The position numbers and the translations under genes are program-made. Of a DNA stretch of 11,694 nt, positions 194 to 9,446 are shown piece after piece. The notes below the pieces were generated by a model, which was given only the letters and a program-made list of their open reading frames with translations, had not been told where the DNA came from and ran no database searches. Position 1 is the first letter of the stretch. The number at the start of each line of letters is the position of its first letter. Source of the stretch: an uncultured Chitinophagaceae bacterium (GTDB lineage Bacteria > Bacteroidota > Bacteroidia > Chitinophagales > Chitinophagaceae); assembly GCA_946885335.1 (NCBI GenBank), contig CAMPGG010000087.1, positions 1-11,694 of the forward strand. Direction: 5' to 3'.

Positions 194-712
194 TTATGTG
201 TAATGTTTCTTTCTTTTGTTCATCAAAACTTTGTCCAATAGCATCAGGCCAAGAACAACATTGATCATCATAAATATATTGATGTATGTATTGTTGAATA
301 AAGCGCTGTAGTCAACGTTCCTGATATCAACCGGTAACATACTGGTGTCTGAACTGGCAGTCCAATCTATTTGTCCAAAACCATAGATAAGAAATCCAAC
401 AATAAGTACGATAAAAAATATTCCAATACCCCAAATGATCCTATGGTTGATGTATGAACTGGCTGCAGGTGCAATTTGTAAGCGGGTGATTTCTTCCATT
501 ACATTTTTTGTAAAACGCATAGAAGGTTCTTCTAACTCTGTAGCATGAAGCAATTGATTTACTTCAACCAGTTCATTATATTTTTCTCTCCAGGACTGGT
601 TTTCTTCTATCAGCCTTTTTACAACAGGAAGATCATCCGGGTTGCTGAATCCGTCAATATATTCCCATAACCTTTCTTCCATATGCTCGCTGCTGAAATG
701 CTCGGTATTCAT
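194..712 (-). CDS. Putative membrane anti-sigma factor, two TM helices
   Basis: This 172-residue protein is most likely the anti-sigma factor of the ECF sigma gene directly upstream; its ATG lies 14 nt after the sigma stop codon in the same operon. Residues 1-80 are soluble and charged (LWEYIDG near 15-21, then a predicted helical stretch to about 55), as expected for a cytoplasmic sigma-binding region. Two hydrophobic segments follow, about 92-113 and 142-160, separated by a loop of roughly 30 residues and ending in a basic tail (NKRKKH). With both ends inside, the loop would lie in the periplasm and could sense an envelope signal. The protein has no cysteine, so it cannot carry the HxxxCxxC zinc motif of ZAS-type anti-sigma factors. 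The assignment rests on position, topology and length; no family motif was recognised. Confidence 0.68.
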   Translation of the reverse strand: MNTEHFSSEHMEERLWEYIDGFSNPDDLPVVKRLIEENQSWREKYNELVEVNQLLHATELEEPSMRFTKNVMEEITRLQIAPAASSYINHRIIWGIGIFFIVLIVGFLIYGFGQIDWTASSDTSMLPVDIRNVDYSALFNNTYINIFMMINVVLGLMLLDKVLMNKRKKHYT

Positions 713-726
713 GATTAAATAATTTA

Positions 727-1308
727 TTAGTAAATATCTTTTACCTCTTCCCTGAAATGTGTTTCCATTTTTTCCTTCAACCTGGCTCTTGCCCTGTGTA
801 ATCTAACTTTGACCGTATTTGTTTCAAGTCCCAATATTTTAGCGATCTCTTCCAGGTTTTGTTCTGCCTTATAAAAAAGGGTTATAACCTGGGCATCATC
901 CGGTGAAAGTAGTTTAATGGCCTGGTTAACCATGTTAACTTTCGATTTCTGTTCCACCTGGTTAGCCCTGAATCCCGAATCCTGGCTATCGGCCAGTTCA
1001 AATGTTCTTTCATCATCCAGCGAATGCACTTCCATTTTCTTTTTTCGTAAAAAAGTAATGGAAGTGGTATAAACCACCGTGTACAACCAGGTGCTGAATT
1101 TGGATGTTCCTTTAAAATCGGCCAAAGAGCGATATACTTTTACAAAAATATCCTGGGCCACTTCCTCAGCATCTTCCCGGCTTTTGATAAACCGCAGGGT
1201 TAACGTAAAAACATAATTTTTATACCTGTCAACCAGCTCAGAATAAGCATGCTGCTCACCATTCAAAACCCTGCTAATGATCTCTATATCCGTGGATCCA
1301 GTCGACAT
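727..1308 (-). CDS. ECF-type RNA polymerase sigma factor (sigma-70 family)
   Basis: A complete 193-residue ECF sigma factor that redirects RNA polymerase to a specific promoter set. Region 2 spans about residues 22-90: DAEEVAQDIFVKVYRSL (46-62) is the core-binding and -10 recognition signature, followed by FSTWLYTVVY and a basic FLRKKK. A variable acidic linker runs from 93 to 130. Region 4 spans about 133-182, with the helix-turn-helix NLEEIAKILGLETNTVKVRL (151-170) and the basic HRARARLKE that recognises the -35. Length and order are normal for the family. It is first in a two-gene operon with the presumed anti-sigma factor. A TGTAACC-N17-GTCTAA element faces the gene and ends 8 nt before the ATG, suggesting autoregulation and an almost leaderless mRNA. 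No other ATG lies nearby, so the start is well determined. Confidence 0.95.
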   Translation of the reverse strand: MSTGSTDIEIISRVLNGEQHAYSELVDRYKNYVFTLTLRFIKSREDAEEVAQDIFVKVYRSLADFKGTSKFSTWLYTVVYTTSITFLRKKKMEVHSLDDERTFELADSQDSGFRANQVEQKSKVNMVNQAIKLLSPDDAQVITLFYKAEQNLEEIAKILGLETNTVKVRLHRARARLKEKMETHFREEVKDIY

Positions 1309-1316
1309 TCAGTTAG

Positions 1317-1346
1317 TTAGACCCGTTTTTTGTGTTGCGGGTTACA
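1317..1346 (-). promoter_or_regulatory. Candidate ECF promoter for the sigma gene
   Basis: On the minus strand TGTAACC (1346-1340) is followed after 17 nt by GTCTAA (1322-1317). An AAC-type -35 and a GTC-type -10 are hallmarks of ECF promoters, and the same pair with identical spacing occurs twice on the other strand of this spacer. The spacer carries an A-run. Transcription would begin at or within a few nucleotides of the sigma ATG at 1308. The identity of the recognising sigma is inferred from position. Confidence 0.62.
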
Positions 1347-1377
1347 CTGCAAAGAAAATTAATTTCTGGTTGACTAC

Positions 1378-1405
1378 TATATAATAAGTATTGATTTATT
1401 ATATA
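1378..1405. repeat. A/T-only 10-bp inverted repeat in the divergent spacer
   Basis: TATATAATAA (1378-1387) and TTATTATATA (1396-1405) are perfect inverted copies separated by 8 nt. The element lies between the sigma-facing promoter and the first promoter facing the DUF6249-like gene. It could be a regulator operator or simply an easily melted or extruded A/T palindrome; nothing else identifies it. Confidence 0.4.
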
Positions 1406-1445
1406 TATGATTGAAACAGTCTTTTTTAAAATATTATAAATTTCC

Positions 1446-1475
1446 TGTAACCTGCCCGAAATGGTTGTAGTCTTA
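1446..1475 (+). promoter_or_regulatory. Candidate ECF promoter P1 for the DUF6249-like gene
   Basis: TGTAACC (1446-1452) and GTCTTA (1470-1475) are separated by 17 nt, the same geometry as the sigma-facing element. The shared string extends to TGTAACCTG compared with P2, and both spacers hold AAA at the same offset. Start of transcription would be near 1482, giving a leader of about 100 nt. A short inverted repeat, TTAACC (1473-1478) with GGTTAA (1488-1493), overlaps the -10 and could be an operator. Confidence 0.55.
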
Positions 1476-1507
1476 ACCTGTATAGACGGTTAAAAAGTTC
1501 TGAAAAC

Positions 1508-1537
1508 TGTAACCTGGTTCAAAACAGGATGGTCATA
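1508..1537 (+). promoter_or_regulatory. Candidate ECF promoter P2 for the DUF6249-like gene
   Basis: TGTAACC (1508-1514) and GTCATA (1532-1537) are 17 nt apart, 62 bp downstream of P1 and in the same direction. Transcription would begin near 1544, about 40 nt before the ATG at 1583, a more usual leader length than P1 gives. Confidence 0.58.
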
Positions 1538-1582: not shown

Positions 1583-1930
1583 ATGAACGGCGCAGAATTA
1601 TTAATCCCCATCCTGGTTCCTTTAGGTGCATTTGCAATGATATTTGGAATCGTTTACCTCAGAACCAGGGAAAACATGGCTATGATGGAAAGAGGAAAGG
1701 ATCCCCGCAGCCCACGTCCTTACCGTAACCTTAAAAACGGGTTATTATTTATGGGTGCAGGAATTGGTTTACTCCTTGCTTATTTGATCGATGTATTTAC
1801 TATTCCTGAAAGAATAGAACCAGCCCCTCTTTATTTCGCATTAATTGGTATTGGTGGCGGAATGGGCCTCATGCTTTCTTACAAAATAGAAAAGAAAGAA
1901 GTATTTGAGAAGGACCGGGATGTATTGTAA
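1583..1930 (+). CDS. DUF6249-like small membrane protein
   Basis: A 115-residue membrane protein of unknown function that resembles the DUF6249 family, small Bacteroidota proteins often found near ECF sigma genes. Three hydrophobic helices are predicted at about 5-26, 51-71 and 81-100. The loop after the first helix carries RENMAMMERGKDP (29-41), the most family-like part, followed by a basic stretch; the C-terminal tail (EKKEVFEKDRDVL) is charged and probably cytoplasmic. The gene is divergent from the sigma operon and is preceded by two tandem copies of the candidate ECF promoter, which makes it a likely regulon member. It is transcribed alone and ends at a hairpin at 1970. No biochemical role is proposed. 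Confidence 0.85.
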   Translation: MNGAELLIPILVPLGAFAMIFGIVYLRTRENMAMMERGKDPRSPRPYRNLKNGLLFMGAGIGLLLAYLIDVFTIPERIEPAPLYFALIGIGGGMGLMLSYKIEKKEVFEKDRDVL

Positions 1931-9089: not shown

Positions 9090-9446
9090 ATGAAAGTTGA
9101 AACCTCTGAAAATATTATTCTTAAGAAATGTATCGAATTTTCATTAGCTACTATTGAATATGTTGAAAAGTTAGAGTTGGTAAAAAAATTTGTAATTGCA
9201 AATCAATTATTAAAATCTGCAACATCCATAGGTGCCAATGTACATGAAGCACAAAATGCAGAAAGTAAAACCGATTTTATACATAAGTTTAAAATTGCGG
9301 CAAAAGAAATTGAAGAAACAAAGTATTGGTTGATTTTATGTAATGAAGCAAAGTCTTATCCAGTTTGTAATCATCTTGCAGATATGCTGTATGAGATTGA
9401 AAAAATAATTACAAAAATTATAGCGACAAGTAAAGCAAATAAATGA
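9090..9446 (+). CDS. Four-helix-bundle protein (TIGR02436/S23-like)
   Basis: A complete 118-residue protein of the four-helix-bundle family first known from intervening sequences in 23S rRNA genes and related in fold to Avd of diversity-generating retroelements. Family core is clear: QLLKSATSIGANVHEAQNAE (39-58), then KTDFIHKFKIAAKEIEETKYW (60-80), followed by a last helix. Four amphipathic helices are predicted at about 8-25, 30-55, 61-85 and 93-114. Basic faces suggest nucleic-acid binding, but no cellular role is established. It sits between sdhA and sdhB, 34 bp after the former and 67 bp before the latter, and is flanked on both sides by AT-rich 8-bp repeats. Its codons are more AT-rich than those of sdhA and sdhB, consistent with later insertion. 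No reverse transcriptase or rRNA gene lies nearby. Confidence 0.92.
   Translation: MKVETSENIILKKCIEFSLATIEYVEKLELVKKFVIANQLLKSATSIGANVHEAQNAESKTDFIHKFKIAAKEIEETKYWLILCNEAKSYPVCNHLADMLYEIEKIITKIIATSKANK

Follow-up and report, generated by a model that had tools for sequence, protein, structure and literature searches.

Candidate promoters for a probably autoregulated ECF sigma factor with a predicted near-leaderless mRNA and for a divergent DUF6249 gene in a Chitinophagaceae bacterium

The window analysed here, a stretch of 11,694 nucleotides from an uncultured Chitinophagaceae bacterium, carries divergent genes for an extracytoplasmic function (ECF) sigma factor and a small DUF6249 membrane protein, and the three TGTAACC-N17-GTC elements in the spacer between them are very probably promoters of the adjacent sigma factor, one serving an operon that would be autoregulated and have a near-leaderless mRNA and a tandem pair driving DUF6249. 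The candidate promoter of the sigma/anti-sigma operon lies at 1317..1346 on the minus strand (TGTAACC-N17-GTCTAA) and is kept in relatives, and the candidate distal and proximal promoters of DUF6249 lie on the plus strand at 1446..1475 (TGTAACC-N17-GTCTTA) and 1508..1537 (TGTAACC-N17-GTCATA), respectively. ECF promoters typically combine an AAC block at -35 with a GTC block at -10. Counting both strands, TGTAACC has seven matches in the window against 1.2 expected, and TGTAACC-N17-GTC occurs exactly three times against a mean of 0.01 in 200 shuffles, none of which contained three. All three matches (minus 1346-1320, plus 1446-1472 and plus 1508-1534) fall inside the sigma/DUF6249 spacer, at the positions given by an earlier, sequence-only reading of this DNA. 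That reading had also stated that the other TGTAACC sites (4327 and 7624 on the plus strand, 3050 and 2324 on the minus strand) have no GTC at the same offset, which is the case for all four.

A weight matrix of 32 columns, trained on 182 sites of related loci with the window left out, ranks the three elements as the top three positions of the whole window, with scores of 32.2 (distal), 29.3 (proximal) and 14.4 (sigma-facing); the fourth position scores 2.0. The sigma-facing site is thus the weakest of the three, lying under the 5% quantile of the training sites (21.5), for which the minimum is 13.7 and the median 29.4.

The sigma factor gene (727..1308, minus strand) encodes 193 amino acids with sigma-70 regions 2 and 4 (Pfam Sigma70_r2, 4.9e-15; Sigma70_r4_2, 5e-11) and no match for region 3, the arrangement that defines ECF (group 4) sigma-70 factors, and it scores 105.4 bits against TIGR02937 (cut-off 42.9). 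With a profile of 17 sequences, the best match among solved structures is Bacillus subtilis SigW (5wuq_A, 3.4e-27). Against the SigW equivalog model NCBIfam TIGR02948 the protein reaches 106.8 bits, below the curated cut-off of 243.1, and it is therefore called SigW-like rather than SigW. Fourteen nucleotides downstream lies a gene for a 172-aa protein (194..712, minus strand) that is the probable cognate anti-sigma factor, with an N-terminal domain of the class I anti-sigma type followed by membrane helices. The protein falls in no accepted Pfam family. A profile of 40 orthologues matches RsiW (5wuq_C, 6.7e-4), and in a Foldseek search with its AlphaFold2 model the top two chains are RsiW (probability 0.98 and 0.94, E 0.21 and 0.44), with MucA next and RslA, ChrR and the anti-sigma factor of SigK lower, all at E 0.2 or worse. 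Profile and predicted fold, with helices at residues 8-20, 28-37, 39-59 and 65-79, thus point to the N-terminal four-helix sigma-binding domain of class I (ASDI) anti-sigma factors; the Hx3Cx2C motif of the zinc-binding subset is found in none of the 40 orthologues.

The divergent gene (1583..1930, plus strand) encodes a 115-aa membrane protein with three predicted helices that belongs to DUF6249 (PF19762, 54.8 bits against a cut-off of 33). Its AlphaFold2 model likewise has three helices (mean pLDDT 78, pTM 0.55), and no fold in the PDB matches with an E of 0.001 or less, so the structure gives no function. Elsewhere in the window, an ORF of 118 aa (9090-9446, plus strand) lies in an apparent operon, with a succinate dehydrogenase flavoprotein-like gene on one side and an iron-sulphur-like gene on the other; its product resembles a four-helix-bundle protein of the 23S intervening-sequence type.

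Conservation of the elements was assessed in 81 loci, namely the window and the best 80 of at least 514 relatives from a scan of species genomes, a set that leans to close orthologues because only the best 80 were kept. The relatives seem to be organisms of Chitinophagaceae and Sphingobacteriaceae type (Niastella, Flavihumibacter, Pedobacter and Mucilaginibacter). Within this best-80-plus-window set, DUF6249 is divergent within 700 nt in 65 loci, divergent with a larger gap in seven, upstream on the same strand in two and absent from the locus in seven. In the 400 nt upstream of sigma, the same 81 loci contain 175 TGTAAC-N18-GTC sites, where 30 dinucleotide shuffles gave a mean of 0.17. Other gaps from 13 to 23 yield 11 matches in the same sequence (81 x 400 nt), ten of them at gap 15, which we suspect reflect GTCGTC overlaps, and one at gaps 13-14, 16-17 and 19-23 together. 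The sequence-only reading had offered conservation between orthologous sigma-DUF6249 spacers as a check, and here the motif stood firm: facing sigma it is exact in 76 of the 81 loci and has one mismatch in three (L002, L010 and L048, which read GGTAACC), and the remaining two (L072 and L077) are rearranged, with DUF6249 and sigma co-oriented, one strict site before DUF6249 and none left before sigma.

Toward DUF6249 the best-80-plus-window set has 72 proximal and 37 distal sites. The tandem arrangement proposed for DUF6249 accordingly recurs in many Chitinophagaceae-type loci, and does not extend to the Sphingobacteriaceae-type loci among L056-L080 with DUF6249 divergent, where only one strict site faces DUF6249. 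Comparison of the loci also brings out bases beyond the search pattern, with an A at offset 29 in 100% of the 76 sigma-facing, 72 proximal and 37 distal sites, and with enrichment of GTa before GTC and of an A/T-rich tract at -18 to -13.

The distance between the sigma-facing site and the sigma gene is held within narrow limits. Measured from the first base of the -35 element, the first codon of the sigma profile lies at 37-43 nt in 76 loci, with an ATG there in 69; in the window, the ATG at 1308 is 38 nt from the first T of the site. In 18 genomes drawn from across the phylum the distance to the start codon is 36-39 nt, two of which first scored 34 from a TTG or GTG directly preceding an ATG at 37. 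On the DUF6249 side, the ATG of the window is 75 nt from the first T of the proximal site, and across the loci the proximal site lies 58-192 nt from the profile's first column, the point to which these distances run and at which an ATG stands in 32 of 72 proximal rows. In the accessible part of the work on Bradyrhizobium japonicum EcfF, +1 was mapped about 6 nt past the -10 element (PMC3420878). If transcription starts at a similar point here, the sigma leader would be about 0-8 nt across loci, and in the window the predicted 5' end would be at 1308..1311 (minus strand), with a leader of about 0-3 nt. Because the start codon lies only 36-43 nt from the -35 element, the sigma mRNA should be leaderless or nearly so.

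It is unlikely, in our estimate, that the true start codon is instead further downstream or that a longer transcript is used. Such a doubt draws on the scarcity of leaderless mRNAs in the phylum, which make up 5.5% in Flavobacterium psychrophilum (PMC9723704) and, as 5' UTRs under 10 nt, about 3.7% in Bacteroides thetaiotaomicron, both figures taken from the portions of those sources at hand, and on the seven of 76 loci that have a codon other than ATG at the first column of the profile. A downstream start sits poorly with the pattern of substitution, however: in 48 loci, sigma codons 9, 11, 14 and 17 keep their first two positions but vary freely at the third, indicating that translation begins upstream of them, and in the window the ATG at 1308 is the only in-frame ATG, GTG or TTG before codon 15. 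The constancy of the spacing in the 76 loci and in the 18 further genomes also argues against this alternative.

The arrangement extends well beyond close relatives. DUF6249 is present in 27 of 99 genomes drawn from the phylum, and a sigma-facing site is present in 18 of these 27, where the sigma factors are 34-71% identical to that of the window; three are closer relatives (54-71%), two of which (G002 and G045) also belong to the first set of relatives, and the other 15 are at 34-41%. In the nine remaining DUF6249-bearing genomes the strict sigma-facing site was not found; eight have an ECF match in the DUF6249 locus and one does not, and these genomes may represent shifted specificity or other ECF lineages. 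Spacing is less rigid in the deep lineages, since 16- or 18-nt spacer variants face DUF6249 in several loci and the L237 divergon has a 16-nt spacer in both promoters (1858 on the minus strand and 1882 on the plus strand), as if the whole system had shifted by one base together. In another deep-lineage locus, L192, a third strict site (1980, minus strand) directly follows the sigma/anti-sigma genes and precedes a gene for a 352-aa secreted-looking protein, probably one more local target. In a further deep lineage (L195-L199, L201 and L205) the divergon neighbourhood is stable, unlike that of the window, with flanking genes that, from their sequences, are presumably thioredoxin-reductase-like and/or Era-like.

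The motif also follows DUF6249 when the two genes are separated. All four genomes examined in which DUF6249 is separated from sigma have the motif at DUF6249: L148 and L200/L221, both in tandem and the latter with its sigma at L207, and L175 and L180. It was the motif that led to L148, L175 and L180, which come from searches covering the genomes of three of the seven loci without DUF6249 (the other four being L048, L061, L065 and L074). Furthermore, the 27 DUF6249-bearing genomes contain 52 motif matches, divergon sites included, against 26 for the reversed-pattern control, and the 72 genomes without DUF6249 show no excess (22 against 31). Occurrence away from sigma is what might be expected if the sites were operators of a separate DNA-binding regulator for which sigma is merely one target. 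Such an interpretation is nonetheless highly improbable. The motif consists of two unlike blocks, AAC and GTC as in ECF promoters, with one preferred gap, and it is oriented toward the gene start; by eye it shows no dyad symmetry. Its distance to the sigma start, 36-43 nt, is that needed of a core promoter, and it is in excess where DUF6249 is present.

The sequence-only reading had further suggested enrichment of the motif upstream of genes, and in relatives this was upheld. The strict pattern has 170 matches in 40 genomes that carry sigma, against 45 for the reversed pattern and 30 with an N18 spacer, and many of the sites outside the spacer precede members of a few families. Twelve of the 30 N18-spacer matches are one dispersed repeat in a Mucilaginibacter genome (G042), whose 12 copies around GGCGGCGGGCATTCG mimic the motif with an 18-nt spacer. 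A looser pattern gave a modest excess in eight further genomes (37 against 23 for the reversed control); this had suggested a motif without targets beyond the spacer, an idea abandoned once 40 genomes had been searched and the genes behind the sites read.

That reading covered 91 non-spacer sites in 89 loci (80 fetched and nine from the eight-genome looser-pattern search), with spacer sites set aside by position, by eye, and with crude ORF calls; it leaves out G043, G045, G047, G048 and part of G040. Sixty-two sites are intergenic with a following ORF, six are intergenic without one, and 23 are inside an ORF, as is expected of chance matches. The 62 precede genes for DUF2807 lipoproteins (18), PepSY-like secreted proteins (13), carboxypeptidase-like/outer-membrane barrel proteins (5), a beta-lactamase-fold-domain group (4), DUF6249 rows (4), MacB/FtsX permeases (3) and alpha/beta hydrolases (2), the others being single; the 62 include a sigma gene, since L179, a sigma locus, was counted with them.

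A head-GIN (DUF2807) lipoprotein gene with a strict site is found once each in 18 of the 48 genomes searched. The one protein checked by Pfam matches at 3e-42, and all 18 positions agree with PF10988 matches. The fraction is properly taken as 18 of 48, because the 30 genomes used for the DUF2807 count (136 PF10988 matches) were picked after the hits were known and contain all 18. By chance, about 0.005 strict sites are expected within 350 nt before the DUF2807 genes of those 30 genomes, a figure computed with 137 genes (the match column sums to 136), or 0.01 for 48 genomes by scaling. As far as the consulted part of one study goes, DUF2807 is placed among the Toastrack domains of LiaG type, which have a link to envelope stress of the phage-shock kind (PMC11237479), and this fits an envelope-stress reading of the system.

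The one PepSY-like protein scanned falls below Pfam's cut-off. In seven PepSY-like promoters (L120, L124, L127, L160, L164, L170 and L184) the 17-nt spacer contains the word TAnnTTTG, as in TACATTTG. The primary sigma factor of Bacteroidota has this word as its -7 box, and the presence of the word suggests that housekeeping and ECF promoters overlap here or share an ancestral promoter.

Some non-spacer sites stand before genes that have no obvious tie to the envelope, as might be expected if several ECF sigma factors shared the motif, the three promoters then forming a hub not dedicated to the neighbouring sigma. A precedent may exist in the SM6 promoters of F. psychrophilum, which have a conserved CGT box and which, in the available text, the authors suggest are perhaps read by several ECF factors (PMC9723704). 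A paralogous ECF factor could read the same sites, yet the lack of a motif excess in genomes without DUF6249, in which ECF genes were uncounted, speaks against a hub, and we regard it as rather doubtful, though a more serious contender than a separate regulator or a displaced sigma start.

With the neighbouring sigma factor as the preferred reader of the motif, the proposed mechanism is as follows. The promoter consensus would be a -35 element cTGTAACCtG and a -10 element GTCWtA, with 17 nt between TGTAACC and the -10. At rest, the membrane anti-sigma factor, through its RsiW-/MucA-like N-terminal domain, would hold sigma; an envelope signal would release it, and sigma would then amplify itself from the one promoter of the sigma/anti-sigma operon (positive autoregulation) and induce DUF6249 from two tandem promoters in the window and from one or two in relatives. 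In relatives, sigma may also induce the DUF2807 head-GIN lipoprotein, PepSY-like secreted proteins, an outer-membrane beta-barrel protein and FtsX/MacB permeases. The pair is thus probably a self-amplifying envelope-stress switch of the SigW/RsiW kind. The earlier proposal that sigma activates its own operon and DUF6249 is largely supported by these comparisons, as neither conservation nor enrichment in relatives went against it; the near-leaderless sigma mRNA and the wider set of targets proposed here go beyond it.

Autoregulation of an ECF factor is of a known kind, and parts of the system have counterparts elsewhere. The E. coli RpoE-type promoters, GGAACTT-N15-GTCTAA, belong to an autoregulated operon and share the AAC of the -35 element, a GTCTAA-like -10 element and a similar separation; here, in contrast, the -35 element is TGTAACC with 17 nt to GTC. 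B. subtilis SigW/RsiW is the best solved-structure match of both proteins by profile and of the anti-sigma model by fold, yet the SigW promoter, TGAAAC-N16-CGTA, is unlike the motif here, and we know of no DUF6249 divergon at its locus. RsiW also carries, according to the section of the survey seen, a zinc-binding motif (PMC7406223), unlike the anti-sigma factors here. For ECF16/EcfF of Bradyrhizobium, the part of the paper available gives a group-16 -35 element written tGTAACc, like the TGTAACC here, an autoregulated ecfF operon and a transcription start 6 bp after the -10 element; it differs in a CGAA/CGT-type -10 element and a spacing of 14-16 nt (PMC3420878).

Among Bacteroidota, the SM6 promoters of F. 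psychrophilum are, in the text at hand, assigned to ECF sigma factors, including one sigma/anti-sigma operon, and resemble those here in having a CGT box at -10, but their targets are T9SS and band-7 genes (PMC9723704). Porphyromonas gingivalis SigP is likewise a Bacteroidota ECF factor of 193 aa but, from the excerpt consulted, works with PorX on T9SS genes, and its proposed motif is unrelated (PMC4800418). A Bacteroidales sigma/anti-sigma pair similar to EcfO is described, in the portion available, as answering a probable envelope stress, with an anti-sigma factor much larger than the one here (PMC9308784). Class I anti-sigma genes were reported beside only 6% of Bacteroidetes ECFs in the accessible part of one survey (PMC7406223); the anti-sigma factor here lies outside every accepted Pfam family, so counts of such pairs may be too low.

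In the open-licence PMC literature, to the extent that its texts were available, we found neither the motif with a Bacteroidota sigma factor nor the system, its phylum-wide promoter conservation, its regulon or a near-leaderless sigma message, and a search of that literature on DUF6249 returned a single paper, on plant kinases. To our knowledge, few Bacteroidota ECF sigma factors have a defined promoter or regulon. The system described here offers a sharp, testable consensus and a probable anti-sigma factor for one of them, and a first regulatory context for DUF6249. The kept promoter-to-start distance would, in addition, be a clean case for leaderless translation in a phylum where, in the sources at hand, translation starts mostly without Shine-Dalgarno sequences. 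We tentatively entertain, at somewhat less than even chances, a broader view, in which this is a phylum-wide Bacteroidota envelope-stress sigma factor whose mRNA is held leaderless or nearly so by selection, with leaderless translation as part of the switch; it draws on the retention of the 36-43 nt distance even at 34-41% sigma identity and on the rarity of leaderless mRNAs in the phylum. If true, sigma might be made under stress through, for instance, intact 70S ribosomes.
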